From Desulfovibrio sp. JC010 (GTDB taxonomy: Bacteria > Desulfobacterota > Desulfovibrionia > Desulfovibrionales > Desulfovibrionaceae), in contig NZ_VOIQ01000021.1 of assembly GCF_010470675.1 (NCBI RefSeq), positions 1 through 60,528 of the forward strand: a stretch of DNA of 60,528 nt, written 5' to 3'. A program made the translations under genes and the position numbers. Below are positions 1 to 16,150 of the stretch, in pieces. Every line of letters starts with the position of its first letter. Position 1 is the first letter of the stretch. The notes under the pieces were generated by a model. The model searched no databases. It was not told the origin of the DNA and saw nothing but the letters and a program-made list of their open reading frames with translations.

Positions 1-2144
1 CGGAAAAACGGGATGTGGCGGAAGCCATATCTCAAGCCCTCGGCGGTCCTGCCAGACCGACCGGAGCGGCTTTCCATGTCAACGGCGACAGCATCACATG
101 GCTCTGGGGTCATTTGTTGCGGCTCACTGATCCAGAAGAACACGATGAGCGTTACAAGCTCTGGGATCTTAAAACCCTGCCCATGAAATGGCCGGTCAGC
201 TATGTCCCGGAGCAAAAGCACGCCGCCCATCTGAAAAAAATCATCGAAATGGCCCATCAGGCTGACGAGCTGATCAACGCTGGCGACCCGGACCCGGAAG
301 GTCAACGGCTGGTTGATGAAGTCATCGAGTTTGCCGGATTAACCGGCAAGCCGACCAAACGACTCCTGATCAACGACAACAACGGCCCGGCAATTCTGAA
401 GGCCCTGAAAGTCATGGAGGACAACAACAGATTTCACGGGCTGTCCATGTCCGCGCTGGCCCGTGCGGTCTGCGACCAGCGTGTCGGCTATAACCTGACC
501 CGCTGCTATTCCACCATGGCCCAGAAAAAGGGCTATCAGGGTGTTCTTTCTGTGGGCCGGGTCCAGACTCCAATTCTGGGACTGGTGGTTGCGCGTGACC
601 GCGTCCATGAAGGCCACGAAAAGCAGGCTTACCACGTTGTCAAAGCCCGGATCGCTCTGGCGGATCAGGTTGTAGAAGCGGAATTTATTCCAGCAGCGGA
701 AGCACCCGTGGACGATAAAGGACGGATCATTGATGCTGAATTTGCCAGCAAGATTGTGGGCGATATTCAAGACAAATCAGCAACAGTCCTTTCCGTGCAG
801 ACCACCGAGCGTAAAAACGATCCTCCACTGCCGTATAACCTGCTGGCTTTGCAGGCCGATGCCGCCGGGCTCTGGAATTTCAAGCCCAAAAAAGTCTTGG
901 AAATCACCCAGCGACTGCGCGATCAGCACAAAGCCATCACCTACAACCGCAGTGACTGCCGTTACCTCAACGACGAGCGACACGCCGAGGCTGCGGAACT
1001 CTTGTTTTCCCTGACTCCGGCCTTCGGAGACATGGCTGAATACGCCACCCCCAAGCTCAAATCAAAGGCTTTCAACTCCAAGAAAGTCACCGCGCACCAT
1101 GCCATAATTCCGACCATGAATGTGCCGGAGCTGGAAAAGCTCACGCAGGATGAACGGCGAATTTATGAACTGATCGCCAAGCTTTACATCGCCCAGTTCT
1201 ATCCCCCGGCGGAGTTTGTAAGCACCAAGGTTGAACTGGAAATTGCCGGTCACACTTTCAGGGCTGAAGGCAGGGTCAACAGCTCACCGGGCTGGAGGAT
1301 GCTGGATGAGCTGGCCCGCAAGGAATACGAAAAAGCTGAACGTCAACGGGATTTGTACCGGCTTCAGCAGGGTGGTTCCGGCCCAGTGAACTCCGCCGAA
1401 TTCGTGCAGGCTTTCACCAAGCCTCCCGCACGCTACACCATGAAAACTCTGCTCAAAGACCTGACCTCAGTCGCCAAATACGTGACCGACCCGGAAATCA
1501 AAAAACTGCTCTTGGACAAAGACAGCGACAAACAGGACGAAGCTGGCGGGATCGGAACTCCGGCCACCCGTGACGCTCATATCGACACCCTCTTCAGGCG
1601 CGGCTTTCTGGGCGAGGACGGCAAGAAGGTCGTCAGCACCGAGCTGGGCCGCAATTTCCACAATGCCCTGCCGGAATTCGCTGTGAAGCCAGACATGACC
1701 GCGCTCTGGCATGAGAAGCAAAAGCAGATTGAAGCCGGAGAACTAAACCATCTCAAGTTCATTGAGGAAGTGGAGAGTTCGGTTGCTCAGGAAATTGAAC
1801 GCGTTAAGCGCGAAGGGCTAAATATCAGGGTTCAAGGGGTGCAATGCCCCAAATGCAAAACCGGAATTCTGCGGTCCCGCAAAGGCAAAACAAAATTCTG
1901 GGGCTGCTCAAATTATCCCGACTGCAAAGCGACCTTCCCTGATAAATCCGGCCAGCCGGATCTCACGTCCAAACCTGCGCAGAAGCTGGAACCGTCCACG
2001 GAACACATCTGCCCGGAATGCGGTAAGGGCCTGATCCGCAGACCGGCCAAGCGCAAAGGGCTGTTCTGGTGGGGATGCAGCGGCTTCTCGGATTGCAAAT
2101 TCCGCTGCTTTGACGAGAAGGGAAAACCAAAACTTGAAAAATAA
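1..2144 (+). CDS. topB: DNA topoisomerase III, 5' end outside window
   Basis: Type IA topoisomerase that relaxes and decatenates DNA by single-strand passage. Plasmid and ICE copies (RP4 TraE is one) accompany transfer functions. The reading frame is open to the window edge (E-K-R-D precede the GTG at 15), matching the conserved N-terminal EK motif, so the true start lies upstream. Counting from the codon at 15, the TOPRIM acidic cluster DPDPEG is at about residue 91, the motif ITYNRSDCRYL puts the catalytic tyrosine near residue 310, and two C-terminal C4 zinc ribbons begin near residues 611 and 666. A small acidic protein and the primase follow closely (14 and 2 nt gaps), so the three are probably one operon. 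GC content is host-like, unlike the AT-rich cargo further on. Confidence 0.93.
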   Translation, partial: EKRDVAEAISQALGGPARPTGAAFHVNGDSITWLWGHLLRLTDPEEHDERYKLWDLKTLPMKWPVSYVPEQKHAAHLKKIIEMAHQADELINAGDPDPEGQRLVDEVIEFAGLTGKPTKRLLINDNNGPAILKALKVMEDNNRFHGLSMSALARAVCDQRVGYNLTRCYSTMAQKKGYQGVLSVGRVQTPILGLVVARDRVHEGHEKQAYHVVKARIALADQVVEAEFIPAAEAPVDDKGRIIDAEFASKIVGDIQDKSATVLSVQTTERKNDPPLPYNLLALQADAAGLWNFKPKKVLEITQRLRDQHKAITYNRSDCRYLNDERHAEAAELLFSLTPAFGDMAEYATPKLKSKAFNSKKVTAHHAIIPTMNVPELEKLTQDERRIYELIAKLYIAQFYPPAEFVSTKVELEIAGHTFRAEGRVNSSPGWRMLDELARKEYEKAERQRDLYRLQQGGSGPVNSAEFVQAFTKPPARYTMKTLLKDLTSVAKYVTDPEIKKLLLDKDSDKQDEAGGIGTPATRDAHIDTLFRRGFLGEDGKKVVSTELGRNFHNALPEFAVKPDMTALWHEKQKQIEAGELNHLKFIEEVESSVAQEIERVKREGLNIRVQGVQCPKCKTGILRSRKGKTKFWGCSNYPDCKATFPDKSGQPDLTSKPAQKLEPSTEHICPECGKGLIRRPAKRKGLFWWGCSGFSDCKFRCFDEKGKPKLEK

Positions 2145-2158
2145 ACCAAGGAGAAAAA

Positions 2159-2353
2159 ATGCACACAAACAATGAAATTAAAAAACACATGGACGCACAG
2201 GCCCGGCAGATTGACCGGGAACTGAGCGAAAACCCCGGTGCGGCCATGGAAGTGGATCAGGAGCTGGCCGACCACATGGGGGCTTTTGAGGAAACCGCGC
2301 TCAGCCTTGAGGATGCGGAAGATGCTTCTTTTGATCCTTTTGAGGAGGAATAG
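2159..2353 (+). CDS. small acidic protein between topB and primase
   Basis: Encodes 64 residues, rich in Asp and Glu, ending in an acidic FEEE tail. A good ribosome binding site (AAGGAG) lies about 7 nt before the ATG. Its stop is 2 nt before the primase start, so the two are likely translationally coupled. No motif is recognised. It is predicted helical and soluble, with no membrane segment. Its position inside a topB-primase operon suggests a role tied to DNA processing or to the neighbouring antirestriction protein, but that is only inferred from context. Confidence 0.7.
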   Translation: MHTNNEIKKHMDAQARQIDRELSENPGAAMEVDQELADHMGAFEETALSLEDAEDASFDPFEEE

Positions 2354-2355
2354 AC

Positions 2356-4671
2356 ATGGCAAAAGAAAAAACACCCTACTATCAGCGGTTTGCTGAAGAA
2401 ATCATCGAGAAGTTGAAGGACGGCACAGCCCCGTGGATCAAGCCTTGGAAACCCGGTGAATATCAGCCCGCCTTCAATCCGGTTTCCGGCACTGTGTATC
2501 GTGGAATCAACCAGCTCATGCTCGGTTTGGATGATCTGAATGATCCCAGATTCCTGACCTATCGGCAGGCGGAATCCAAAGGCTGGCAGGTCCGCAAGGG
2601 TTCAAAATCCCGATCTATTGTTTTCTGGCAGATGTCCCGCCAGATTGCGCTCAAAGACGATAACGACAAGAACATTCTGGATGAGGACGGCAACGCCCAA
2701 ACGCAGACAGTCATGCTTTCAAAGCCGATTATCCGCTTCTCCAATGTCTTCCACGCCAGCCAGATTGACGGAATCCCGGAATGGGATGGCCGGGAGATCA
2801 CATGGAACCCCGACGACCGGGCTGAAGTCATTCTCCAGAACTCCGGGGCCAGCATCACCCACGACCAGCGCAACAAGGCATTTTACAGGCCGTCCTCGGA
2901 TGAGATTCACCTGCCGCCGCATGCGGCCTTTGGCAACTCTGATCAGTATTACAGCACAGCCCTGCATGAGCTGGGACACTGGACTGGACATGAATCGCGC
3001 CTTGATCGGGAATTCGGGCCGTTCGGTTCCGAGATTTATGCCAAAGAAGAACTACGTGCCGAGATCGCAAGCTGGATGATTAGCGCGGAACTCGGCCTCA
3101 GCCACGATCCCGGCCAGCATCTCAGCTACGTTGATAACTGGGTCAAAGTGCTTGAGGAAGACCCTTTTGAAATTATCCGGGCCTGCCAGAGCGCGGAAAA
3201 AATCAAGGATTACACGCTGGATTTCGAAAAGGACCGCAGTCAGCAAAAAACAAAAGAAGAAGGCATATCCATCTCCACATCGGACAAGGCCAAGCTTGAG
3301 CAGCGGGAATCAATGTACGGACTCCCGGCAAAGGGGAGGACTTATCTCAAAGTGCCGTTCTCCGAAAAAAATGAAGCCAAAAAACTTGGGGCCAAATGGG
3401 ATAAGGACAAGAAAATGTGGTTCGCTCCTGAAGGCACTGACCTTGACCAGCTCGCCCGCTGGATGCCCAATGCACAGGCTCAAGATCCTGCCACCAAACC
3501 TGAACAACAGAACAAGAACACCGTGAAGAATATTGCAACGGAAAAGACCTATCTGAACGTGCCGTATAAACAGAAGTGGCTGGCCAAAAAGCACGGAGCA
3601 CGCTGGGATAAATCAGCTAAGCTCTGGTTTGCGCCCACCGGAACCGATCTCGGCCCGCTGGCTGAGTGGCTGCCGAAGGAAAGGATCATTGCGCCGGAAA
3701 CAAACGCAGTTCAGGAATTCGCCAAGGCCATACAAGAGGCCGGGCTTGATCTTCAGGGCCAGATGCCGATCATGGACGGAACTCTGCACCGTGTACCGGT
3801 CATAGACGGCAAACCCAATTCAAAGGACGGCGCATACAAGGGCTTCCTTGACGGCCATCCCGCCGGATTCATCCAGAATCACAAAACCGGCCTGAAAATG
3901 AATTGGAAGGCTGAAGGCACCAAGCTGACCGAAGAGCAGAAAGCCCAGCTCAAAGCACAGGCTGCCCAGAAAAAGCTGGAACGCGAAAAGGCCATTGCCG
4001 AACAGCGTGAAAAAGCCTCAAAACGTTCCTACGCCAAGTGGACCAACGCCCAATGGGCCACCAAACAACAGGCATACTTGAGCAAGAAGGGAGTCCCCAA
4101 CTACGCGGTAAAGGTCAACGAGCACGGTGATCTGCTCGTGCCGGGCCGTGACGTTGAAGGCCATATCCACACCCTGCAAACCATCACCCCGGACGGCAAG
4201 CTCTTTGAAAAAGGCGGCTTGAAAGCAGGCATGTTCCACACCATCGACCCCGGCGAAAAGATCGCCAAAGGCGGTCCGATCCTTGTTGCAGAAGGCTACG
4301 CCACAGCAGCCAGCGCACACATGGCAAGCAATATGCCCACTGTCGCAGCGTTCGACGCTTCCAACCTAGAACCGGTCGCCATGGCCCTGAAAACCAAATA
4401 CCCCAAAAGCACCATCGTGCTGGTCAGCGACAACGACCATCACCTCAAAAACAATGTCGGGGTAGAAAAGGCCGAGGCTGCAGCCAAAACCGTCGGTGGT
4501 TTGTTGGTAACACCCAAATTCAGCGAGGCCGAAAAGTCGCAAGGCCTGTCAGACTTCAATGATCTGCACCAGTCTCGCGGACTTGGAGAAGTACAGAAAC
4601 AGATCTCCCAGACCATCAAGATGGCGAAATCCATGAAGGCTGGAGAATTGCCGCTGGCTATGGCGATGTAA
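2356..4671 (+). CDS. ArdC-like antirestriction / TOPRIM primase fusion
   Basis: A 771-residue composite DNA-transfer protein. Residues 1-130 match the ArdC-type single-strand DNA binding N domain (YYQRFAEEIIEKL, then W-I-K-P-W). A zincin-like metallopeptidase follows, with the HELGH motif at residues 204-208. Two copies of a DUF5710-like module (TYLKVPF and TYLNVPY, each ending W-F-A-P) start near 329 and 398. The C-terminus is a TraC-like TOPRIM domain with a Glu at about 646 and a D-N-D at 692-694. ArdC proteins protect incoming single-stranded DNA from restriction, and plasmid primases of this type prime the transferred strand in the recipient. It converges with cargo on the minus strand. 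A degenerate copy of its 3' end occurs at 6054-6134. Confidence 0.88.
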   Translation: MAKEKTPYYQRFAEEIIEKLKDGTAPWIKPWKPGEYQPAFNPVSGTVYRGINQLMLGLDDLNDPRFLTYRQAESKGWQVRKGSKSRSIVFWQMSRQIALKDDNDKNILDEDGNAQTQTVMLSKPIIRFSNVFHASQIDGIPEWDGREITWNPDDRAEVILQNSGASITHDQRNKAFYRPSSDEIHLPPHAAFGNSDQYYSTALHELGHWTGHESRLDREFGPFGSEIYAKEELRAEIASWMISAELGLSHDPGQHLSYVDNWVKVLEEDPFEIIRACQSAEKIKDYTLDFEKDRSQQKTKEEGISISTSDKAKLEQRESMYGLPAKGRTYLKVPFSEKNEAKKLGAKWDKDKKMWFAPEGTDLDQLARWMPNAQAQDPATKPEQQNKNTVKNIATEKTYLNVPYKQKWLAKKHGARWDKSAKLWFAPTGTDLGPLAEWLPKERIIAPETNAVQEFAKAIQEAGLDLQGQMPIMDGTLHRVPVIDGKPNSKDGAYKGFLDGHPAGFIQNHKTGLKMNWKAEGTKLTEEQKAQLKAQAAQKKLEREKAIAEQREKASKRSYAKWTNAQWATKQQAYLSKKGVPNYAVKVNEHGDLLVPGRDVEGHIHTLQTITPDGKLFEKGGLKAGMFHTIDPGEKIAKGGPILVAEGYATAASAHMASNMPTVAAFDASNLEPVAMALKTKYPKSTIVLVSDNDHHLKNNVGVEKAEAAAKTVGGLLVTPKFSEAEKSQGLSDFNDLHQSRGLGEVQKQISQTIKMAKSMKAGELPLAMAM

Positions 4672-4786
4672 GAATTAATTAGATGGGCTCTGAGGGGGGA
4701 CCATCTGTATTTTGAAAAAACTCTACATATAAAATATATACACCAACATAAATAAGTTTATTATTACTTACGTATAGTAAACAAAA

Positions 4787-4814
4787 AAGTGGCTCCATAC
4801 TAATGAAGCCACTT
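4787..4814 (-). terminator. terminator after the 41-residue peptide
   Basis: On the minus strand an 8 bp stem (AAGTGGCT with AGCCACTT) closes a 12 nt loop and runs into six T residues. It lies about 11 nt beyond the stop of the small peptide at 4825-4950, which supports that short reading frame being a real transcription unit. Confidence 0.8.
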
Positions 4815-4824
4815 AAGGTTTTAA

Positions 4825-4950
4825 TTAATCATATTTCTTGGATTTTAAAAGCCTATACTCTCGCAGAATACGGGCAATCTTGTCCAAGCATCCAGAAACA
4901 GCGGTAATCAACGTAGCAATAGCAATGATCATTTCAACTTGGAGTTGCAT
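4825..4950 (-). CDS. 41-residue hydrophobic peptide, toxin-like
   Basis: A short frame starting ATG at 4950, with GAGGAAA about 6-8 nt upstream, ending just before a clear terminator. The product has a short polar start (MQLQVE), one hydrophobic segment of roughly 15-17 residues (MIIAIATLITAVSGCL), then a basic tail with R/K at eight positions (ILREYRLLKSKKYD). This architecture is that of single-pass peptides such as type I toxins (TisB, Fst and similar) and some holin-like peptides. The upstream leader from about 4955 to 5200 is long and purine-pyrimidine rich and could host an antisense RNA, but none is demonstrated. The alternative is a small membrane regulator. The frame is well supported; the toxin role is inference. 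Confidence 0.6.
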   Translation of the reverse strand: MQLQVEMIIAIATLITAVSGCLDKIARILREYRLLKSKKYD

Positions 4951-4954
4951 ATTG

Positions 4955-5335
4955 CATTTCCTCATTGAGATTTTGCCCGTCTTCTAGTCAGACTTTCTCT
5001 GCTGAGCTCTCATGGTCTCGACTCCGCTTCTTCTCTTTGTCCAGTATTTATCTGGAGGCTCAGTGCGGGTAATAGAATCTGAGTAGATTCTCTTTTTAAT
5101 TTGTATAAGAAGGAGTTTTTTCTTCCGTTCTTAGAAGTTAACACAGGGATGCCTTTTTGAATAAAAAAGAGACCTTAGCTATCAGCTCAATTTCTGTCAG
5201 AATCTTTTAGCAGCCGCCATGGTCCTGACGCCACCACCCTACCTACCCCCTGAATCAAAGAAACAGGGCCTGTGGTCAGCATATTGAAATCTGCTAATGA
5301 AAAAATAAACGGACCTGAAGTCTTGGTCAATTTAA
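4955..5335. other. intergenic leader region, no further gene seen
   Basis: About 380 bases between the small peptide and the HEPN-like gene. It contains a 9-codon minus-strand frame (MRAQQRKSD) ending about 30 nt before the peptide gene, which could act as a leader, and otherwise only AT-rich sequence. I see no second protein, tRNA or clear repeat here. Confidence 0.4.
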
Positions 5336-5338
5336 AAT

Positions 5339-5905
5339 TCAAGATATTTTTGTCATAGCGAAAAAGGCACTGCCCGTTTCTGCAAAAGGATTATCACCCA
5401 AGCCAGCCGCTTGATGCAGTTCAACAATAATTTTCTGAGTATGCTTGATAGCCTTTTGAGCGTTCTCTTTCGTGGCATATTCTTCCCAGCTAGCCCCTAG
5501 CGTGAATCTATTTATTTGTTCGTTGGGAACGCATACATCTTTAGTTACGTCTTCAATAGTTGTTTTCCCATGAGCCATGGTGTCCCTAAAAGAGAATATT
5601 TCCTTAATCGTTGAATACGGAGCCACATCGAAGTTAACTTCAAGATTTAATTGATTACAAAATTTTTCATATTTTTTAAATTTTGGAATATTTCGTTCAA
5701 TTTTATTCCATTTTTTATCTCTTAATGCTCCAAAATGATTGAAATATGCTTCAAGAGTAAATGCACAAAAGACAATGCAACTTATTCGGTTATACAAGGC
5801 ACCTACATCGCTAGCCTGTGCCTGCTCAAGCATTTGCTTTGCGCCAATAAACATATACGCAAAAGTATTCGTTTCACGTTCCCCAACAACTCTATAATTC
5901 TCCAT
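5339..5905 (-). CDS. HEPN-like protein with R-x4-H motif
   Basis: Encodes 188 mostly helical residues. The stretch FSFRDTMAHGK puts Arg107 and His112 in the R-x4-H spacing that defines the active site of HEPN ribonucleases, the nuclease fold of many toxin and abortive-infection systems. A ribosome binding site (GAGGCAGG) precedes the ATG at 5905. The gene is AT-rich relative to topB and the relaxase, in keeping with transferred cargo. It has no obvious nucleotidyltransferase (MNT) partner, which separates it from classical HEPN-MNT pairs. It sits in the gap between a primase 3' end and a relaxase 3' remnant. The family call rests on the motif and the helical context alone, so RNA cleavage is an inference. 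Confidence 0.6.
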   Translation of the reverse strand: MENYRVVGERETNTFAYMFIGAKQMLEQAQASDVGALYNRISCIVFCAFTLEAYFNHFGALRDKKWNKIERNIPKFKKYEKFCNQLNLEVNFDVAPYSTIKEIFSFRDTMAHGKTTIEDVTKDVCVPNEQINRFTLGASWEEYATKENAQKAIKHTQKIIVELHQAAGLGDNPFAETGSAFFAMTKIS

Positions 5906-5948
5906 ACCTGCCTCGAAAAAGATTGAACATGACCTATGTTTTAAGCTC

Positions 5949-6040
5949 TTATGCGGACTTTCCCCTGACCATGAGCCTATTCTTCAACGTGTATAGAACA
6001 TTGCAAGACGAATCAACACGCCAAATCATTTTATCCAATT
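5949..6040 (-). pseudogene. remnant of relaxase 3' end
   Basis: Read on the minus strand this encodes LDKMIWRVDSSCNVLYTLKN followed by a few residues and a stop. It aligns with LDQVTWRVDSSGNILYTLKN near the C-terminus of the intact relaxase at 8202-9815. DNA identity over roughly 80 bases is around three quarters by eye. The rest of the relaxase is absent; the homology ends abruptly at the junction with the primase remnant at about 6045. It is a degraded second copy, not a gene. Confidence 0.85.
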
Positions 6041-6053
6041 TCAACGAAAACGA

Positions 6054-6134
6054 AAAACGCAAGAGCTATCCGACTTCAATGACCTATACCAATCTCGTGA
6101 GATTGGAGAATTGCCGTTGGCTATGGCGATGTAA
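6054..6134 (+). pseudogene. remnant of primase 3' end
   Basis: The plus strand encodes LSDFNDLYQSREIGELPLAM and ends at the same Ala-Met-stop as the primase at 4671. The intact gene reads LSDFNDLHQSRGLGE, then 24 further residues, then ELPLAMAM, so the remnant also has an internal deletion. Similarity continues about 25 bases past the stop (TTAATTAGATGG in both). It directly abuts the relaxase remnant on its left. Together they mark a deletion junction. Confidence 0.85.
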
Positions 6135-6198
6135 GGTTTAATTAGATGGACTCTGGAGGATTCTTGCTATTTACATATTTTTTAATTATCCACCGCAA

Positions 6199-7068
6199 AT
6201 GTACGCATATAAAATATTCAATAGAGTCAAAAAAAAGAATATTTCATGGACAAACTGTATAAACGCTCTAGCCTCAATCGTCACAGTAATAGCCCTATGT
6301 ATCTCTCTACAATTCAATAAAGAAGTAATCACCGAGATGAAACGAGAAAGGCTACTCACTAACACCCCTTTGATTTCCCCGGTCGATATTAATTATCTTG
6401 TCTCGAAACCAAACAGTTCATTTCCTGTTCCCGATGGGTGGAGCCTAAAGTTCGATTGGGAGCCCTTAATTTCACCAGAAAAAACAGACAGCAATTCTCA
6501 TAGAGTCGCAAAAAAAGTTGGCAATAAATATAATTCAACAACTTTGGTCTTTAAAAATATTTCTGAATCCCCAGCACTAAACCTAGAAATAACAATGACA
6601 TCCTATTTATTTAGGATCAAACCTATCGATAAAATATTTTATGGAGAGACGCCCGGACTATTTAGTACTGAGGACTATATTACTGAAAATGGTCAAATCA
6701 TGTGGAAATATAGGACAAATGCCCTTATGCCACATGAAGCCATAACTATCCCAATTTCCAACATATACCTTCACTTTTGCTCTTCATACATATCTCAAAG
6801 ACATAGAGAATACGTAGCCTCAAGGGCGTGTTCTATTAATCCTATAATTGAAGAACTTCCGCCAATAGATGTTAGTTTAATTTTCAGGGACTCTTCACAA
6901 GCAAATATGACCCAAGAATTTAAATTACAACATAAATTTGAAATAGGACGTCCTTCGTCAAATCCGTATTTTGACCCAAAAAACAAATCAAACAGCACAG
7001 ATAATCCTGTCGCTGTTGGAAAAATATTTACAGAAGATCGTTTGTTAGCAACAGAATTTAAGCAATAA
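6199..7068 (+). CDS. membrane-anchored protein of unknown function
   Basis: Encodes 289 residues. A basic start (MYAYKIFNRVKKKN) is followed by one hydrophobic segment at about residues 20-38 and then a large soluble domain, probably beta-rich, with no motif I recognise. With positive residues before the segment, the tail may face the periplasm, or the protein may be cytoplasmic and anchored. No good ribosome binding site precedes the ATG at 6199, so the start is uncertain. The gene is strongly AT-rich and converges with the DUF5677-like gene across a 37-base gap. It may work with that gene as a cargo pair, but convergent orientation argues against a shared operon. Confidence 0.65.
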   Translation: MYAYKIFNRVKKKNISWTNCINALASIVTVIALCISLQFNKEVITEMKRERLLTNTPLISPVDINYLVSKPNSSFPVPDGWSLKFDWEPLISPEKTDSNSHRVAKKVGNKYNSTTLVFKNISESPALNLEITMTSYLFRIKPIDKIFYGETPGLFSTEDYITENGQIMWKYRTNALMPHEAITIPISNIYLHFCSSYISQRHREYVASRACSINPIIEELPPIDVSLIFRDSSQANMTQEFKLQHKFEIGRPSSNPYFDPKNKSNSTDNPVAVGKIFTEDRLLATEFKQ

Positions 7069-7105
7069 AAAGTGCCTTCAATGAAAACATGAGACTACAG
7101 ATAAT

Positions 7106-8161
7106 TTAATTCATATTTTTATCTAGCTCTGGAAAATCAATTTTAAAAAAAATATCACCAACATTTTCAGCAAGCTCAGCCAAAATCTTCATTATAGCAA
7201 TATGATCTAGAGTCGGCTTTATAAGCAATAAATTTGTCGTAATATTCACCAAACTCAAAGCCGTCGAAGAAGCAGGGTCCGTCATTCCTGAATCGCTCGG
7301 ACCTACAAGTAAAACATCCTTTTCTGACTCACACATACCCAATTGATTCCGCAAGGCCTTTGGCCCAGCATGGATATTTTGGCTTGCCCACTTATAATAA
7401 GGTCTAAAATGGTCTGACCCAACACTTTGCTCAATATCTGCAAAGTTCACTCTTCCTTTCTTAGATACAAATTTAGATGCCCAACCATACTGCCCCTTGA
7501 ACTCTTTACCATACTCAGCAACAATTTCGTCATAAACTTTTTTACAGGAATCTATCTCGCCTTGTGTTGGCCCTTCAGCATTTAGCCGACTCTCAAATTT
7601 TTTTTGCTGAAGCATGCCTTTGTATGATTCTATCACATCATGGTCTAAATATCTTTTGGCGCATTCTTGACCATTGGCAGTTATAAATGATGAAGTAACA
7701 GCAACCTCATGAAGAGCACGCCATCTAGCATGAGCTCCGTCAGCATATCCTGACTTAAGTAGACAAAGAATTTCATTGGCTATATGACACGCTCTTGCAT
7801 GGAGTCTTACTATAGTGCCAAAGAGGAAATCTTTTTGTTTTACAAACTCAGCCCCATACATTTTATTACATGTATTCCCAGCATCAATACAAATCAAAAT
7901 CAAAGACTCTAGAGAATCGAATCCATCATCCCATTTACGATAGTTATTCTCTAAAAATTTAGTATTTTCCTTTCTTCTCTCTACTAATTCATCTGACACA
8001 TAAGATATTATCGTTCCTTTAATTTCGTCAGCTATGTCATCCGTAACCTTTGACAAAAAATCTTTATCTTTTGCTTTTTCTAAAATTTCTTCGGCTTTTT
8101 CAGGATAATTTTCGACATGTTCCATTAATGCCTGTATTAACATTTCGTGACATTCTTTCAT
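7106..8161 (-). CDS. DUF5677-like protein
   Basis: Encodes 351 helical residues. The central stretch HARWRALHEVAVTSSFI, preceded by a helix with H-A-R-A-C-H-I-A-N-E, is the signature I associate with the DUF5677 family, which recurs in mobile and defence regions and has no established biochemical role. A second conserved-looking segment is ASQNIHAGPKA near residue 265. The start at 8161 is supported by GGAGAGGGAGA. It lies 40 bases after the relaxase stop in the same direction, so it may be read through from the traJ-relaxase transcript. The gene is AT-rich compared with the relaxase, suggesting separate acquisition. Confidence 0.65.
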   Translation of the reverse strand: MKECHEMLIQALMEHVENYPEKAEEILEKAKDKDFLSKVTDDIADEIKGTIISYVSDELVERRKENTKFLENNYRKWDDGFDSLESLILICIDAGNTCNKMYGAEFVKQKDFLFGTIVRLHARACHIANEILCLLKSGYADGAHARWRALHEVAVTSSFITANGQECAKRYLDHDVIESYKGMLQQKKFESRLNAEGPTQGEIDSCKKVYDEIVAEYGKEFKGQYGWASKFVSKKGRVNFADIEQSVGSDHFRPYYKWASQNIHAGPKALRNQLGMCESEKDVLLVGPSDSGMTDPASSTALSLVNITTNLLLIKPTLDHIAIMKILAELAENVGDIFFKIDFPELDKNMN

Positions 8162-8201
8162 TCTCCCTCTCCTCGATAGGCAGTTACGGCGAATTCAATC
8201 A

Positions 8202-9815
8202 CTATCGACTAAGACCTCGGTGCTGTCTAGCAATCCCATTCCCCTCAACCTTCACATTCCGCCCAAACATCATCCGCGCAAAACTCTGCGCCACTTGCCT
8301 TGCCCCAAGATCATTCACGCTGAAGAAAATTTTATCGCCATTGTCCTTAACCATTGCTCCGTTCTTCAGCGTGTAGAGAATATTACCAGACGAATCCACA
8401 CGCCAAGTCACTTGATCCAAATTACGTTGATCAGGATCGTTTACGCGCTTGGCCTCTTCGGCCTGCAACTGAAGCATCTTGGAAATGGACAGCAGCCTGC
8501 GTTTGTCTTTCCAAGCCAGACTTAAATCTGATTTGAACTTACTCTGCTTGATCTTCAGATCTGAAACTTTTGAGGCCGTGCCAGCAAATTCTGGAGAGGA
8601 GTTACTTTGAATCGGCTCCTTCTTTGACCGCAAAACTTGCAAAGCTGTTTCATCGCCGTTTTCAGCCTTCCATTTCAAAAAACCATTCCAGCGATTAAAA
8701 GGTATTTTATGACGCAATTCCGCACGCTTCTCAGCCATTTCTTGTTTTAAAATTTCCATTGCCGCCGTCTTTCTGCCGGTAGCAATAGCAATTAAGCGGC
8801 TGCGGTCTTTGGGCCTCAGCTTGTTGTCTTTTCTTATGGCTTTGACCTTGGCATCCCAATCAGAATTGATCTGCTTCCAACGGCCATCCTGTTCTTCGCG
8901 CAATGCTTCATAAACCTTTTTCCTATCGGCTATAGCGGCCTTATACTCAGCGTAAAGTTCGCCACGCTGCTTATGCAGAGGACGGGCTACGTAGCTGTCT
9001 TTCTCCATCACCACGAACTCTGCGGGCTTTTGATAGTGGCCGAGTAGGGCTTCGAGTTTGGATTTGCTAAAATCACGGTCAAGTCGGCTGGCCTTGATGG
9101 CCGTTTTAGAATGAAGGTCTTTAATGATACAACCGTTGCCGCGCAACCGGACCTCGACGCCGATCTGCGCCAATGATTCATGAAACTCCTGCCAGCCATG
9201 CGAAGAACGCAAGGACTCCAAAATGAAATCCTTGCGCTCCTTTACATATGAATCAAAAGACTGCTGGCCGGAATGGGATTCATAAGTAGCCGCACGGTCG
9301 TTATTGCGTTTGGGCAGCAATTCTTTTTGCCTGCCGTTATCGAGCTTCAGACCGAACTTTTGTTCCAGCTCACGATGCAGCCGATCACGCTTATGAAAAT
9401 CCCGGTACGGTTCATGTCGGGTCAGCTTCTCCGGGTGAATCATGTTATATGCGATGTGCATGTGCAGATTGTTGGTATTCTTATGCACTCCACAATGCCG
9501 CTGGTACTCCTCAAAGCCCAAAACCTTGGAAAACACCTGCTCAATTTCTTTAAATTTTTCAGCCGTAAGGACGGACTCATCTTCCGGCCTGAAGGACACG
9601 ATTAAGTGATAGGTCTTTTCCTTACGGGTACGCTTATTCAGATCCTGAGTATCAAGCACTTCCTGAATCGCCAAATCATAGTCATCTCCGGCCCAACAAC
9701 CTGCACACCATGACATGAGACTCTTTTCGCCCTTATGCTTGGCGTCGGCAATATATTGGGCCAGCCTCCGGTAATTATCGTTTTGCGGCTTACAAGCAAT
9801 CCTGCGGCTAATCAT
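8202..9815 (-). CDS. traI: MOBP relaxase, RP4 TraI-like
   Basis: A 537-residue relaxase that nicks one strand at oriT and stays covalently bound through tyrosine. The N-terminal 250 residues follow RP4 TraI closely: candidate nucleophile Tyr21 in AQYIAD, then KTYHLIVSFRPEDE, then the metal-binding H-x-H motif NNLHMHIAYN (His118, His120, Asn124) with His111 just before, and later LRGNGCII and IKASRLDRDFSK. The C-terminus (RVDSSGNILYTLKN, FSVNDLGARQVA) resembles the LPD7 module. It is shorter than RP4 TraI and lacks its long tail. Its ATG overlaps the traJ stop as ATGA, so the two are coupled. Its substrate is the oriT at 10210-10262. Confidence 0.93.
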   Translation of the reverse strand: MISRRIACKPQNDNYRRLAQYIADAKHKGEKSLMSWCAGCWAGDDYDLAIQEVLDTQDLNKRTRKEKTYHLIVSFRPEDESVLTAEKFKEIEQVFSKVLGFEEYQRHCGVHKNTNNLHMHIAYNMIHPEKLTRHEPYRDFHKRDRLHRELEQKFGLKLDNGRQKELLPKRNNDRAATYESHSGQQSFDSYVKERKDFILESLRSSHGWQEFHESLAQIGVEVRLRGNGCIIKDLHSKTAIKASRLDRDFSKSKLEALLGHYQKPAEFVVMEKDSYVARPLHKQRGELYAEYKAAIADRKKVYEALREEQDGRWKQINSDWDAKVKAIRKDNKLRPKDRSRLIAIATGRKTAAMEILKQEMAEKRAELRHKIPFNRWNGFLKWKAENGDETALQVLRSKKEPIQSNSSPEFAGTASKVSDLKIKQSKFKSDLSLAWKDKRRLLSISKMLQLQAEEAKRVNDPDQRNLDQVTWRVDSSGNILYTLKNGAMVKDNGDKIFFSVNDLGARQVAQSFARMMFGRNVKVEGNGIARQHRGLSR

Positions 9816-10138
9816 ATAGACCTCACCTTCTGGACTATTTGCCGTTGAGTCTGACCTATTTCTCTAAGTAGCTTCTCAGCCGCTTTTCGATTGTCGTCAT
9901 CGTCCAAAATTAGCATTTTTAAAAGACCACCCAGACGGCCTTGATCTCCATTAAGCTTCAGAAGCTCCCGGCGAACCTGCTGGTCGGTGCTGCTTCTTAT
10001 TTCATGGCCCAGACATGCTGCCTTGGCAAAGGCAGACAGAGACAAGCTGCACTGCTCTGCGCTTGAACAGATTTGCTCATATTCCTTTTCCGAAACATAG
10101 GTTTTGATAACTTTCTTTTTGCTGGGCACGGATCGCAT
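9812..10138 (-). CDS. traJ: relaxosome protein, RP4 TraJ-like
   Basis: Encodes 108 residues. It matches RP4 TraJ in layout: a ribbon-helix-helix-like N-terminus (KKVIKTYVSEKEYEQI), then SLSLSAFAKAA, then KLNGDQGRLGGLLKMLILDD, where RP4 has RINGDLGRLGGLLKLWLTDD. TraJ binds the inverted repeat beside nic and guides the relaxase. The 4 nt overlap with the relaxase, and the oriT about 75-120 bases upstream of its start, reproduce the RP4 order. Regulation is likely by binding its own upstream oriT, as in related systems; this is inference. Confidence 0.88.
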   Translation of the reverse strand: MRSVPSKKKVIKTYVSEKEYEQICSSAEQCSLSLSAFAKAACLGHEIRSSTDQQVRRELLKLNGDQGRLGGLLKMLILDDDDNRKAAEKLLREIGQTQRQIVQKVRSI

Positions 10139-10169
10139 TTCTCCACGGTTATCTTTTCAATTGCGTTGA

Positions 10170-10285
10170 ACCGAAGGTGAATAAGCCAACCTCAGCCCAA
10201 GGCTGAGCAGGACGTAAGGTACACCGCTTTGAAAAAGTGGGCCTACCTTACCTGTCCTGCCTTCGGACTCCGTGGCAACATATGT
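10170..10285 (+). other. oriT: origin of transfer (oriT), RP4-like
   Basis: Two blocks match the RP4 oriT: GTGGGCCTAC followed by CTTACCTGTCCTGCC (RP4 has TTCACCTATCCTGCCC). The nic site should be TCCTG^C, between 10259 and 10260 on the plus strand. A near-perfect inverted repeat, GTAAGGTA at 10214-10221 and TACCTTAC at 10244-10251, is where TraJ should bind, and inner pairing CCGCTT/AAGTGG lies between its arms. With this nick polarity, DNA to the right leaves first and the traJ-relaxase genes last, as in RP4. The short 82-codon frame across this region (10157-10405) is not considered a gene. Confidence 0.88.
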
Positions 10286-10394
10286 CTTTTTTTGTCTTTT
10301 GAGAACGATTTCGAAGAAATCTATCATAATATCAATAAGTAACGCATAAAGACAAGGAGAGACAAAAAAGGACATGGAAAGACAGATAAAGACA
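10283..10394. repeat. helically phased GACA repeat array beside oriT
   Basis: GACA starts at 10351, 10361, 10371, 10381 and 10391, five copies with an exact 10-base period, mostly preceded by AA or AG. The reverse motif TGTC occurs at 10283 and 10293, again 10 bases apart. The two groups point at each other across about 55 bases of AT-rich sequence. Such phasing puts every site on one face of the helix and suits cooperative binding of a ribbon-helix-helix protein, or DNA bending. RP4 has a TraK wrapping region near its oriT, but no TraK gene is seen here. Confidence 0.75.
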
Positions 10395-10483
10395 AAATTT
10401 CTCAAAAAATATTACAGCCCAGTCTTTGGAGATTTATATGTAGTGGCGGTAAGAAAACATACAGGGAAGCTAACTTTAAAATA

Positions 10484-10515
10484 ACAAGACCTCGAACCGA
10501 AGTCCGAGGTCTTGT
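10484..10515 (-). terminator. terminator of the GNAT-HEPN operon
   Basis: Perfect 11 bp inverted repeat (ACAAGACCTCG with CGAGGTCTTGT) around a 10 nt loop, followed on the minus strand by TTATTTT. It lies about 60 bases after the GNAT-like gene and separates the cargo operon from oriT. Confidence 0.8.
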
Positions 10516-10573
10516 CAATCATCTGCTAATTTGCCGGGTTTAAAAAATCAAATCAGGCCGAAAATCATACAGA

Positions 10574-11092
10574 CTAACACTTCTCAAGCAATTTCTTCTG
10601 ACTATCGGACCCACATTTCCGCGCCACATGAAACATCGCCTTAGACAATGGAAACTCAAAATAAAAATCCTTATATCGCTCAAGGAGATGAGGATACAAA
10701 GCAGTCATATAACCATTGCCCCGGATATATGGATGTAGCCATGCCCATGAAAGCATCCACCCTTCAGGAATATCTGAATATCGCTGCCCATAATCAAACT
10801 CCAGACATCCCATCACGTAATAAGAATGACGGTATCGTTCCTTCAAAAACAATACTAACTGGAGATTGTTATCGTGATACTCTATTTCGTATGGCGCAAA
10901 GTCATACCGGCTCTCCCTTTTAAAATAGTAGCCAAGAATTTGTGCGGCCTTTTTCAAGCTTTTTTGAGAATTATATTTAACGCATACTGCATACATATTA
11001 CGATCATACCAGAGTACGGTAGGTAATTTTTTGAGGTAAGGTATACGGGGAGTAAGCATGTCATATTGGTTCTGCCCCCATGGTAATTTCAT
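10574..11092 (-). CDS. GNAT-like acetyltransferase domain protein
   Basis: Encodes 172 residues. The stretch LHPYIRGNGYMTALYPHLLE has the R-G-x-G-x-M pattern and the flanking strand-helix of motif A in GNAT N-acetyltransferases, which binds the acetyl-CoA pyrophosphate. The N-terminal half (residues 1-90) is rich in Tyr and basic residues and unrecognised. An SD-like CGGAG precedes the ATG at 11092. It is the last gene of a three-gene minus-strand operon with the HEPN-like and 590-residue proteins, 44 bases after the former. GNAT toxins exist in toxin-antitoxin systems, but substrate and role are unknown here. The motif supports the fold, not the target. Confidence 0.55.
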   Translation of the reverse strand: MKLPWGQNQYDMLTPRIPYLKKLPTVLWYDRNMYAVCVKYNSQKSLKKAAQILGYYFKRESRYDFAPYEIEYHDNNLQLVLFLKERYRHSYYVMGCLEFDYGQRYSDIPEGWMLSWAWLHPYIRGNGYMTALYPHLLERYKDFYFEFPLSKAMFHVARKCGSDSQKKLLEKC

Positions 11093-11136
11093 TTATATCT
11101 CCGTGCTCGTAGCTAAATCCTGTGCTGGACGAAAAA

Positions 11137-11625
11137 TTATCTAACTCGAAAATTCGTATCATCTGAAATTGAACTTAATACATCTGACAATGACTCCACA
11201 AATTGCCTGAGTTCATTTCCAGTTAAACTTATATACCAAGGATCAGCGGGGAGCTTCCAGCAATTATTCAGCCCGAACTTTACGCCAGCGATGACCCCGG
11301 AGTTGCCTATAAGTTCAATATCAGAATGTGCGAGCGCGTTACGAAAACAGAACAGGAAATCCCTCAAACTGAAACCTTCTGGGCCAAAATTACGCACGCA
11401 TTCAGGCCATATTCTTGGATCTAAACCAGCTAAAGGAGTATCGTCGATCAATTCATTAAAATCTTCGTATTGAAATACAACCAATCCCAGCAGAGAATTA
11501 ATTATCTGGGTTATTTCATATACATCACGGTCGTAGCTAACTTTAGATGCGACGACATAATCCATATTTTTTCTTGTACGCCGTGCATACTCCTGAAGCA
11601 TTTCGTTGTCTGGATATTCAACCAC
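11137..11625 (-). CDS. HEPN-like protein, second of the operon
   Basis: Encodes 162 helical residues. FCFRNALAHSDIE places Arg95 and His100 in the R-x4-H spacing typical of HEPN ribonucleases, followed by two strands and a Trp-rich loop, then a long C-terminal helix (LRQFVESLSDVLSSI). Start GTG at 11625 with AGAGGT upstream. It begins 13 bases after the stop of the 590-residue protein and is probably co-transcribed with it. It resembles small HEPN proteins found on plasmids. The partner gene also ends in an R-x4-H motif, so a two-component HEPN complex is possible, though nothing in the sequence proves contact between them. Confidence 0.65.
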   Translation of the reverse strand: MVEYPDNEMLQEYARRTRKNMDYVVASKVSYDRDVYEITQIINSLLGLVVFQYEDFNELIDDTPLAGLDPRIWPECVRNFGPEGFSLRDFLFCFRNALAHSDIELIGNSGVIAGVKFGLNNCWKLPADPWYISLTGNELRQFVESLSDVLSSISDDTNFRVR

Positions 11626-11638
11626 AATCTACCTCTTT

Positions 11639-13411
11639 CTATTTGTGTTTCATCCAATCTGCTTGCTGTAGCAATTCTAAAACCCCAAAAAGGCTGGAAA
11701 CGACTTGGTGCAACAATTGAAAACCTTGCTGAACATAGGGGGATGATCTGTCTATCTGTATCAGGCTAAATGCTTCTTCAATCTTGCTACTTGGCAGGTG
11801 AGCATCTGCATGCCGCAATTCATACACCCCCACAAGTGGTGCAGTAATTTTTCGAACCAAATCTCTATCATACTCCGAAGCCAACAAATTTTCTAAAGAT
11901 TTCAGAGATCCCCAGTTTACTTTTTTCGGTGGTGTTACAATTGTCTGCATAGCTTGGGCGTCAAGACTGTCAGCAGTCAATCTAGCAAGAACCTTAGCTA
12001 AAGCATAAAATGATTGTTCATCAATTGATCTAAAGCGATGAATCCTTGGCAACAGTTCAGGAATCAATTCATGTTTTCTAAATAATTGAATCTTCATTTT
12101 TTCTTGAGCAAGTGAATTTATTAATTCAAACACCTTAGGCAAAAACTCTTCTGGAGCTTTGGTATCGGCAGGAATAGCTTTGACTTGTGAAGCTAAAAGT
12201 TCACTAGAAACACCTCCTTCCGGTACCAAATTATATCCGGCCCATATTTGCTGTTGCCATTCAGGAAGTCGTCCAATGTCTTTGGCATAAACATTTACAT
12301 AGGCAAGATCATTCACTCCAAAATGGACACCATAACCATAGGAACATGAAACTCTTCCTGTTTGAGCAGTAAAAAAGGATAGATTACCGCCTCTCACGTG
12401 ACTTAATGCCATTATGACCTCAGGTTTAAACCACAACCATTTTCCCGCATCAATAAGATCTTGCCCACAAATCTTGTTGCCTTCGGCATCAATGACAAAA
12501 AAAGTTGTTGGAATAATACTATCACCTCGAACCCTCGGACTGCTTGCGCTGGGTAGAATAATTTCATTTCGCCACAATTCTCCCACTACCCTAAAAAGAC
12601 TTCTCCCTTCAAATCCTCTTTCCCAAGATTCACTATACGTATTCTCTTCCGTTGGAGGACCGGATATGTCTGGAACATCATCTGATTCATCTACATCTGT
12701 GCGGGACATATGAAATACAGCCATTTTAGCCCCAATTGGCTCACCTCCTTCATGAATCTCAATAACTCGACCTTCCCATTGGTCCAGTTCAGCCGTTTCG
12801 CTGCTAGATCCATCCGGCCATGAAATATGTGAAGCACCATCACAAACTACATCCCTTTCAAAATAGTGAGTCATGTATAAGGCCATCCCCCTAGCGCAAA
12901 GGTAATCCTTTAAATACTGAGATTTAATTTCTAGGGCTACGGGTGCATCCTCGTCAGAAGTCCTAAGTCTTGCAACTTCTGTATAGCCTTCTTTTGGACA
13001 CACCCAAGAGTTACCTTCACGAACTAAACTTAACGAAAGAACCAAATCTTGGTTTAAATGCCATATATTAGGGGTTTCACCATATGTATTTTGATCTAAG
13101 ACTAAATGAACACCTTCAAGATCATTCCCGTATCCCTTGTACACTTCAGCAGGGATATACTTATCTTCATCAATCCATCCAGAATGTTCATTGCTTATGC
13201 CAATATCCATCCAACCAAGTTTTTTTGCGTCTTCAATTTTATTTTGAGGAATAGCGATAGAGCCGCTACCAAAAAACTCTTTCTTATACCCAACGTACCC
13301 GTATTCCCCTTCGTCTACTTTGGTCTCAATAGCCCTTAATGGAATCCACACAGATTTACTAAAATTCTTGCGGCGGATGTCTTTCATTTCAAACCAATCT
13401 TGATTCATCAT
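11639..13411 (-). CDS. 590-residue cargo protein with C-terminal R-x4-H motif
   Basis: A large soluble protein with no signal peptide or membrane segment. Residues 1-450 form an unrecognised mixed domain rich in Trp and Gly, with a conserved-looking block near 355-410 (VHFGVNDLAYVNVYAKDI, LPEWQQQIWAGYN). The last 150 residues are helical and contain VYELRHADAHLP, with Arg533 and His538 in HEPN-type R-x4-H spacing. The layout, a large sensor-like N-part plus C-terminal HEPN, recalls abortive-infection proteins such as ApeA, but I do not see the ApeA N-terminal domain. It may start at either of two adjacent ATGs (13411 or 13408), with a weak ribosome binding site. First gene of the operon with the 162- and 172-residue proteins. 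AT-rich. Confidence 0.6.
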   Translation of the reverse strand: MMNQDWFEMKDIRRKNFSKSVWIPLRAIETKVDEGEYGYVGYKKEFFGSGSIAIPQNKIEDAKKLGWMDIGISNEHSGWIDEDKYIPAEVYKGYGNDLEGVHLVLDQNTYGETPNIWHLNQDLVLSLSLVREGNSWVCPKEGYTEVARLRTSDEDAPVALEIKSQYLKDYLCARGMALYMTHYFERDVVCDGASHISWPDGSSSETAELDQWEGRVIEIHEGGEPIGAKMAVFHMSRTDVDESDDVPDISGPPTEENTYSESWERGFEGRSLFRVVGELWRNEIILPSASSPRVRGDSIIPTTFFVIDAEGNKICGQDLIDAGKWLWFKPEVIMALSHVRGGNLSFFTAQTGRVSCSYGYGVHFGVNDLAYVNVYAKDIGRLPEWQQQIWAGYNLVPEGGVSSELLASQVKAIPADTKAPEEFLPKVFELINSLAQEKMKIQLFRKHELIPELLPRIHRFRSIDEQSFYALAKVLARLTADSLDAQAMQTIVTPPKKVNWGSLKSLENLLASEYDRDLVRKITAPLVGVYELRHADAHLPSSKIEEAFSLIQIDRSSPYVQQGFQLLHQVVSSLFGVLELLQQADWMKHK

Positions 13412-13644
13412 CTACTTCAACTTTTGTTTTTTCATAAAAATAATTTCAGAATTATTGCATTGTTCACTGATAAATACATGGCATTGATGGGACCATAAAA
13501 AATTCACCTTACTGATCCTTTCATTCCCTTGCTTCGTTTCAAAAGACAACCATGATTTAGCTGTCAATAAAATATAAACCATATACTTTTAGCAACTAAT
13601 ATTTTATCAATATCACCCAACAATGGGAAATTCCGTACCCCTAA

Positions 13645-13687
13645 AAGAAACGGGGATGCTTATTTGATTTAAGCATCCCCGTTTCTT
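13645..13687. terminator. strong inverted repeat, bidirectional terminator
   Basis: A perfect 18 bp inverted repeat (13645-13662 with 13670-13687) around a 7 nt loop, with A and T runs on either side. It lies between the cargo operon promoter region and the tRNA, so it may shield the element from chromosomal read-through. No gene immediately to the left is read toward it. Confidence 0.7.
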
Positions 13688-13918
13688 CGTTTTATCTCGC
13701 AATGAGGTATTTTCAAGATTATCAGGCAGCACCGGATAAGTCCTGCCCCAAGTTTTTTCGCTCATGAAAATCAAACCTCACCCATCTAAAAATAATTATT
13801 TCAATCCCCAGCAAAATAAATTAATTTTTTCTTAGGCAAAAAGTCTGCCCATTTTAAAAAAAATTTACTTTTTTTCCCAAAACCGGGAGAGGACCGGGAG
13901 AGACCCGGAAAAACAAAA
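13688..13918. other. element boundary region with short direct repeats
   Basis: Contains no gene. At 13882-13903 the sequence ACCGGGAGAG occurs twice with an 11-base period and a partial third CCGG follows. Such short repeats can be integrase arm sites, but no integrase gene is in the window. The rest is AT-rich. Confidence 0.4.
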
Positions 13919-13952
13919 AGTAAAAGGGTGCTAGACTAAACGTCTAACACCC
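13919..13952 (-). terminator. terminator of tRNA-Lys
   Basis: An 11 bp stem (GGGTGTTAGAC with GTCTAGCACCC on the minus strand, one G-T pair) runs into TTTTACTTTTT. It begins about 12 bases past the tRNA 3' end and is the transcription stop of the tRNA. Confidence 0.8.
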
Positions 13953-13963
13953 TGTATTTACTG

Positions 13964-14039
13964 TGGTAGGCCACCAAGGACTTGAACCTTGAACCAACGG
14001 ATTAAGAGTCCGCTGCTCTACCAATTGAGCCAGTGACCC
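13964..14039 (-). tRNA. tRNA-Lys (CTT)
   Basis: 76 bases on the minus strand forming a complete cloverleaf. The anticodon loop CTCTTAA (anticodon CTT, reads AAG) sits on a GCGGA/TCCGT stem, the T loop TTCAAGT on CAAGG/CCTTG, and CCA is encoded. The acceptor stem has a G-T first pair. It lies at the right edge of the mobile element with its 3' end facing the element, the usual geometry for tRNA-targeted integration. A second attachment copy of the 3' end was not found in the window. Confidence 0.95.
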
Positions 14040-14118
14040 GCGTGTGAAAAAGGGTTTAGAAATATTCACTGCGGATGTCAATCGGTTTTTTATTTTTTTC
14101 TTTAAAAAAGGCAACTAA

Positions 14119-16074: not shown

Positions 16075-16150
16075 ACTTTACGGAAGCCGCACAGTCAGTT
16101 ATCAGGTGGCTCAACAGCAACATTAAAAACTACATATATAAAGGAAGCAC

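Follow-up and report, generated by a model that had tools for sequence, protein, structure and literature searches.

Three proteins encoded near the left end of a contig from Desulfovibrio sp. JC010 carry the HEPN-type motif R-x4-H, which raises the question of whether these proteins of 188, 162 and 590 amino acids (aa) are HEPN ribonucleases (RNases) and whether they act as one defence system. The window analyzed here, 60,528 nucleotides, is the entire contig C21 of the 4.39-Mb genome. An earlier note on this DNA had proposed three HEPN proteins belonging to one defence-type cargo set. Its count is correct in part: of the three genes, one certainly, one probably and one possibly encodes a HEPN protein, and they lie in two separate cargo modules. 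Overall, we consider it rather likely that these genes form interchangeable cargo on a mobilisable genomic island next to a tRNA-Lys gene, that two HEPN families and a separate family, that of the 590-aa protein, are represented, and that the proposed sensor-RNase mechanism described below applies.

Each motif is present as the earlier note had claimed: RDTMAH in the 188-aa protein (R107-H112), RNALAH in the 162-aa protein (R95-H100) and RHADAH in the 590-aa protein (R533-H538). We asked how often R-x4-H arises by chance and found it in 14%, 8% and 51%, respectively, of 2000 shuffles per protein, in 5 of the 37 chromosomal open reading frames (ORFs) of the window, and also in the element's relaxase, ArdC-like, topoisomerase and DUF5677 proteins. 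The 590-aa protein contains a second motif, R215-H220, which is not conserved. Judged from sequence, the bare motif is near chance, and the weight of the finding rests on conservation: R107/H112 are kept in 10/10 aligned rows, R95/H100 in 6/6 and R533/H538 in 102/103. The shuffle and ORF frequencies would suit the view that R-x4-H is simply common and that its three occurrences carry no meaning. We regard this as highly improbable, since the motif is conserved at 18–36% identity in three separate families and since, for the 162-aa protein, the view is already refuted by a curated HEPN match. The DUF5677 protein was considered as a fourth R-x4-H protein and ruled out, because its RWRALH occurs only in close kin and 116 residues separate R148 from H264, the arginine and histidine that are invariant across the family. 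These two residues of the DUF5677 protein (window 7106-8161), invariant in 9 rows, may form an active site of its own.

The 162-aa protein matches the pEK499_p136 HEPN family of Pfam (PF18736) with an expect value (E) of 1.5e-12 and 48 bits against a cut-off of 26.6. R95, N96, A97 and H100 are invariant in 6/6 aligned relatives, and the conserved R-polar-x3-H is present. By sequence, it thus belongs to a known HEPN family, as an ordinary member. We examined kin in five loci of related genomes (L108, L109, L110, L111 and L113). The kin gene lies between PglX- and PglZ-matching ORFs, a bacteriophage exclusion (BREX)-type position, in two of the five (L110, 1486-1968; L113, 1483-1947), both from genomes of the same family, and in L109 it comes after an ORF that carries the relaxase-associated middle domain of TraI. 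A 2013 survey of HEPN proteins, in its excerpted text, lists the pEK499_p136 family with restriction-modification (RM) genes and Pgl components (PMC3710099). The pEK499_p136 alignment gave no match in viral contigs. Separately, L109 contains a 212-aa ORF (1958-2596) that appears nucleotidyltransferase-like by eye, has no Pfam or PADLOC match, and adjoins both the pEK499_p136 gene and a relaxase-like ORF.

In Pfam, the 188-aa protein comes closest to HEPN_RiboL-PSP (PF18735), at E 0.0035; with 17.7 bits against a cut-off of 28.4, the window protein is not a member of that family. Relatives were collected from one locus of the 590-aa family (L033), two plasmid records (L104, L105), two viral contigs (L167, L168) and four other genomes of the phylum among 395 searched. 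In the resulting ten-row alignment G35, F49, E52, N56, K78, R107, H112 and K114 are invariant, such that a conserved Rx4-6H plus an upstream acidic residue (E52, R107, H112) is found in 10/10. With the RiboL-PSP and MAE_28990 HEPN families (PF18735, PF18737) these proteins share R-[DN]-x3-H preceded by an acidic residue, and each of the two families is weakly matched by 4/10 members at E up to 0.1 (best RiboL-PSP value, 4.7e-4). At the same threshold, one member each matches Apea-like HEPN, HepT-like, DUF6565 and BtrH_N. A four-row AlphaFold model of moderate confidence contains helices 14-31, 36-62, 75-85, 97-112 and 146-166; E52 falls within the second of these, and helix 97-112 ends with R107-H112. 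Three results weigh against a HEPN assignment: when the family was compared by hhalign with ten RiboL-PSP sequences, the motif stretch alone was aligned (P 0.0021); a second hhalign comparison was also confined to that stretch (P 0.0095); and the model reached a predicted local distance difference test score (pLDDT) of 66.7. On conservation, weak profile matches and model together, the 188-aa protein is probably a HEPN protein.

In the two viral contigs, the L168 copy lies 20 bases past a gene matching phage integrase and the L167 copy downstream of an ORF that appears integrase-like by eye. A viral-contig scan with the 188-aa protein alone gave no match. In L033, a 188-aa-type HEPN gene (5328-5900) directly precedes a 590-aa-type gene (6004-7761); in the window the two genes are in different modules.

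To place the three genes within the island, we compared twelve stretches around relatives of its relaxase, which occur in 15 of the 17 genomes of the genus including the window's own, where further copies are found on C19, C7 and C10. One sister island, L160, aligns with window 8231-10347 and then with 13546-17338 with only 106 bases separating the two blocks, and another, L159, aligns with 8257-10342 and then with 13569-13706. Therefore window 10348-13545, which carries the 590-, 162- and 172-aa genes, is an insertion relative to both. At the other side, L165 aligns with window 1-4699 and resumes at 8231, and L166 aligns with 206-4699 and resumes at 8226, with different DNA in between. The 188-aa gene is thus in cargo spot 1 and the 590-162-172 operon in cargo spot 2, with the mobilisation genes, a relaxase gene and a NikA-like gene (Pfam, NCBIfam), between them; outside spot 1 is an ArdC-type gene and outside spot 2 the tRNA-Lys gene. 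Additionally, the 188-aa gene is enclosed by a 52-nt direct repeat and a 79-nt likeness to the 3' part of the relaxase gene (5963-6041 versus 8345-8423). These duplicated backbone ends look as if they were the trace of a unit gained by recombination with a related island. The single cargo set of the earlier note is not supported, and the three R-x4-H proteins are ruled out as one system, because their genes belong to two modules, each with its own history.

What the sister islands carry at these spots bears on the nature of the cargo. Five of ten cargo proteins from seven stretches match PADLOC, namely a type I methyltransferase (L161), a type I restriction enzyme (L164), DarT and DarG (L165) and SoFic (L155), and five have no PADLOC match (L162, two of L163, one of L164, and L159). 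By Pfam, a HepT/MNT-type pair sits beside the relaxase in L159 and a RiboL-PSP HEPN protein is encoded in L156. This content suggests a defence-rich island family with modular defence cargo rather than one new system. The proposal of a defence-type cargo therefore fits both the sister-island comparison and the neighbourhoods of the 590-aa family described below, and a defence function would be in line with them. The sister islands provide a clean natural comparison, having the same relaxase and the same cargo spots with different cargo.

The 590-aa protein has no match in Pfam, PADLOC or NCBIfam, and its two PHROG matches are at E 0.07 and 0.18. The profile check for HEPN thus gave a match for the 162-aa protein and none for this one. 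In its family, the sole aligned copy without R533 and H538 is one broken into pieces. The pattern used for the viral scan contained the motif, which biases the 12 viral loci recovered; the genome scan patterns were free of it, and both residues are kept in 79/80 of those loci. In a 74-row alignment, R533, D536 and H538 are invariant. AlphaFold predicted the fold confidently (pLDDT 92.4; predicted template modelling score, pTM, 0.81). The N-terminal part of the model is mixed, mainly beta, and helices extend from approximately residue 403 to the C-terminus. R533 is inside helix 516-537, H538 is the next residue, and helices 541-551 and 559-583 follow, so that the motif closes a long helix, the third of a predicted helical bundle, as in HEPN.

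Several results weigh against a HEPN domain in the 590-aa protein. No HEPN family of Pfam was matched by any of 74 family members at E up to 1. A 30-row C-terminal alignment compared by hhalign gave P 0.14 with RiboL-PSP, 0.25 with pEK499_p136 and 0.14 with the 188-aa family; a profile link among the three R-x4-H proteins was ruled out (P 0.0068-0.25). The residue after R533 is V in 42 and L in 31 rows (73/103), not the usual polar residue, with H534 in the window copy. Position 474, which may be the counterpart of the HEPN acidic residue, is D or E in 97/103 rows and V in the window copy. Of the 558 matches that Foldseek returned from the PDB at E up to 10, none reached 0.001, and the top match (8dgc; E 0.008, probability 1.00) is Avs3, not HEPN. 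HEPN toxin chains 7ae8_A, 7ae6_A and 7ae8_B are at ranks 33, 39 and 47, within the best 50 of the 558, with E 0.44-0.54 and probabilities of 0.51, 0.47 and 0.41; as support for HEPN, these model-based matches are suggestive. A fold search of BFVD gave no match at 0.001, and sequence searches of the PDB gave no useful match.

Conservation and predicted structure speak for HEPN and profiles fail, and we consider a HEPN identity of the 590-aa protein plausible but unproven. The C-terminal helices could instead form another fold, with R533 and H538 serving to bind a ligand or the N-terminal part. In keeping with this alternative are the missing profile and significant fold matches to HEPN, the mostly hydrophobic position 534, and K473 (102/103) and K504 (100/103), which are conserved like the motif. 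Motif spacing, near-total conservation and a position at a helix end followed by a loop fit the description of HEPN given in the excerpted survey (PMC3710099), and HEPN toxin chains are among the best 50 Foldseek matches; we therefore view the alternative as unlikely, though the least so of the rivals discussed here. In a 2022 functional screen, the part of the report consulted describes remote HEPN likeness in 6/21 new defence systems (PMC9519451), and the idea of a HEPN region in the 590-aa protein is therefore in keeping with known biology.

The 590-aa family is widely distributed. Relatives were found on 13 of 72,556 plasmid records, in 125 stretches of a genome collection (the best 80 of which were kept), in the viral loci mentioned above, and in one other genome among 148 related genomes searched, with no match in 50,697 phage records. 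Hosts in the genome collection belong to many phyla. The closest relatives, 72% and 71% identical, are in halomonads, and the family was not found in 16 listed congeners, which therefore indicates horizontal transfer. The neighbours differ between loci: apart from the family itself, no gene cluster is shared by more than 6 of 103 loci, and the family is therefore without a constant partner. A constant 590-162 pair was ruled out, as none of the other 102 loci contains a relative of the 162-aa protein. The order on one Fusobacteria plasmid is hsdR-X-590-hsdM-hsdS. Of the 160 nearest neighbours with 150 aa or more, we drew 143 at random and removed one fragment of the family itself. The remaining 142 matched 285 PADLOC models at 1e-10, led by AriA, PtuA, GajA, NsnB and AbiLi with 4-5 members each, many being overlapping ATPase models, and 33 chromosomal ORFs of the window, the control, matched 0. 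Against a defence reading, this tally counts models instead of individual proteins, and a single small stretch from one genome served as control. No mention of six protein accessions of 590-aa homologues was found in open-licence PMC text.

The HEPN genes might instead be addiction modules, similar to toxin-antitoxin pairs, that keep the island in its host, with the 172-aa protein or another neighbour as antidote. Small R-x4-H HEPN proteins are known toxins according to the excerpted survey (PMC3710099), the 162- and 172-aa genes are on one strand with a 44 bp gap, and the HepT/MNT-type pair of L159 is beside the same relaxase. Set against this, no nucleotidyltransferase family was matched by Pfam among nine proteins of the region, in agreement with the earlier note; the 172-aa protein has no relative among 173 loci compared, apart from window copies, and no conserved pair was seen; and across 103 loci no partner of the 590-aa family is constant. 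We judge addiction to be improbable, more so than a non-HEPN fold in the 590-aa protein. Other labels given to the neighbours fared unequally: the DUF5677 assignment is firm (E 1.2e-34) and the GNAT likeness of the 172-aa protein is weak, under the cut-off (E 0.018). For the nine proteins PADLOC returned a single match, between the 188-aa protein and Specificity_I (E 0.018), which we judged to be chance.

From layout and setting, we infer the following mechanism for these putative defence modules. The small HEPN ribonucleases encoded by the 162- and 188-aa genes would represent two different families. The 590-aa gene, first of the 590-162-172 operon in spot 2, belongs to a separate, widely transferred family that elsewhere has no constant partner. 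The beta-rich N-terminal part of its product, approximately 400 residues, may act as a sensor of infection or of foreign nucleic acid; the C-terminal HEPN-like region (R533, H538) would then cleave RNA, stopping the cell or the phage; RNase activity, sensing and phage defence are thus putative roles. Tentatively, and with less confidence than in the account of the island as a whole, we propose that the 590-aa protein represents a widespread single-gene anti-phage family, of which it would be the first member described, and which would combine a novel beta-rich sensor with a profile-evading HEPN RNase, across phyla and in mobile defence islands. If so, a single defence gene present in at least 125 genome-collection stretches and 13 plasmid records is without a name in the family libraries searched, and HEPN nucleases would extend to a domain missed by sequence profiles, in a compact sensor-nuclease.

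The features of the island are listed in the table. The contig starts at the left edge, and the island is therefore truncated on the topoisomerase side. The 3' 18-mer of the tRNA-Lys gene occurs at three further sites in the same genome (C10:141084, C15:25974 and C15:35703) with integrase matches within ~1.4 kb, and the same attachment site is probably used by other elements too. The far boundary of the island was not located; the genome's 14 integrase matches are all off contig C21, and an attachment-site pattern guessed independently of the tRNA sequence gave no match. A GC-rich, perfect-looking inverted repeat at window 13645-13687, 5' of the 590-aa gene, is reversed in L160 and may be a terminator or a regulatory site.

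Table. Features of the island in the window, with coordinates, strand and basis of assignment
Feature	Coordinates	Strand	Basis or remark
709-aa ORF, taken as backbone topoisomerase	15..2144	+	Name by eye; backbone common to L165, L166
771-aa ArdC-type protein (ArdcN, zincin, DUF5710, Toprim), backbone	2356..4671	+	Pfam; also in L156, L165, L166
52-nt direct repeat, copy 1, at 3' end of ArdC-type gene	4641..4692		92% identical to copy 2
Cargo spot 1, ArdC-type gene to relaxase	4700..8230		L165/L166 alignments break here, other DNA inside
46-aa ORF, unassigned	4825..4965	-	
188-aa probable HEPN protein, R107-H112, E52	5339..5905	-	Conservation, weak Pfam match, predicted model
52-nt direct repeat, copy 2	6104..6155		92% identical to copy 1
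289-aa ORF, hydrophobic N-terminal stretch (by eye)	6199..7068	+	No match in Pfam, PADLOC, NCBIfam, PHROG
351-aa DUF5677 protein	7106..8161	-	PF18928 E 1.2e-34; phrog_27456 8.7e-95
537-aa MobP-type relaxase, backbone	8202..9815	-	NF041893 E 1.3e-146; PF03432
108-aa NikA/MobC-like accessory protein, backbone	9812..10138	-	PF21983 E 4e-16
Cargo spot 2, ~3.2-kb insertion	10348..13545		Not in sister islands L160, L159
172-aa protein, weakly GNAT-like, operon gene 3	10574..11092	-	PF00583 E 0.018 (under cut-off); phrog_36762 2.3e-8
162-aa HEPN protein, pEK499_p136 family, R95-H100, operon gene 2	11137..11625	-	PF18736
590-aa protein, unnamed family, C-terminal HEPN-like region ~403-590, R533-H538, operon gene 1	11639..13411	-	
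tRNA-Lys(ctt), probable island attachment site	13964..14039	-	3' 18-mer repeated elsewhere in genome near integrase matches

Compared with known systems, the window genes show both likenesses and differences. Compared with its kin of the pEK499_p136 family, the 162-aa gene follows a 590-aa gene in a mobilisable island and is not in a BREX or RM operon. The HEPN motif is common to HepT/MntA and the window proteins, and the 590-aa model is weakly like the HEPN toxin chains of 7ae8 and 7ae6, but the HepT/MNT-type arrangement that adjoins the same relaxase in L159 differs from the window region, which lacks a nucleotidyltransferase gene. Avs3, the top Foldseek match, differs from the 590-aa protein in that the query-normalised template modelling score (TMq) is 0.21 over 211 columns and that the 590-aa family has no STAND NTPase domain by Pfam. 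Single-protein defence genes with a C-terminal HEPN domain exist, for example ApeA. The 590-aa family differs from ApeA-like proteins in having no Apea match among its 74 members, as for the other HEPN families of Pfam, but is like them in length, in the position of the motif near the C-terminus and in its RM neighbourhoods; according to the excerpted 2013 survey, ApeA is part of RM operons in certain bacteria (PMC3710099).

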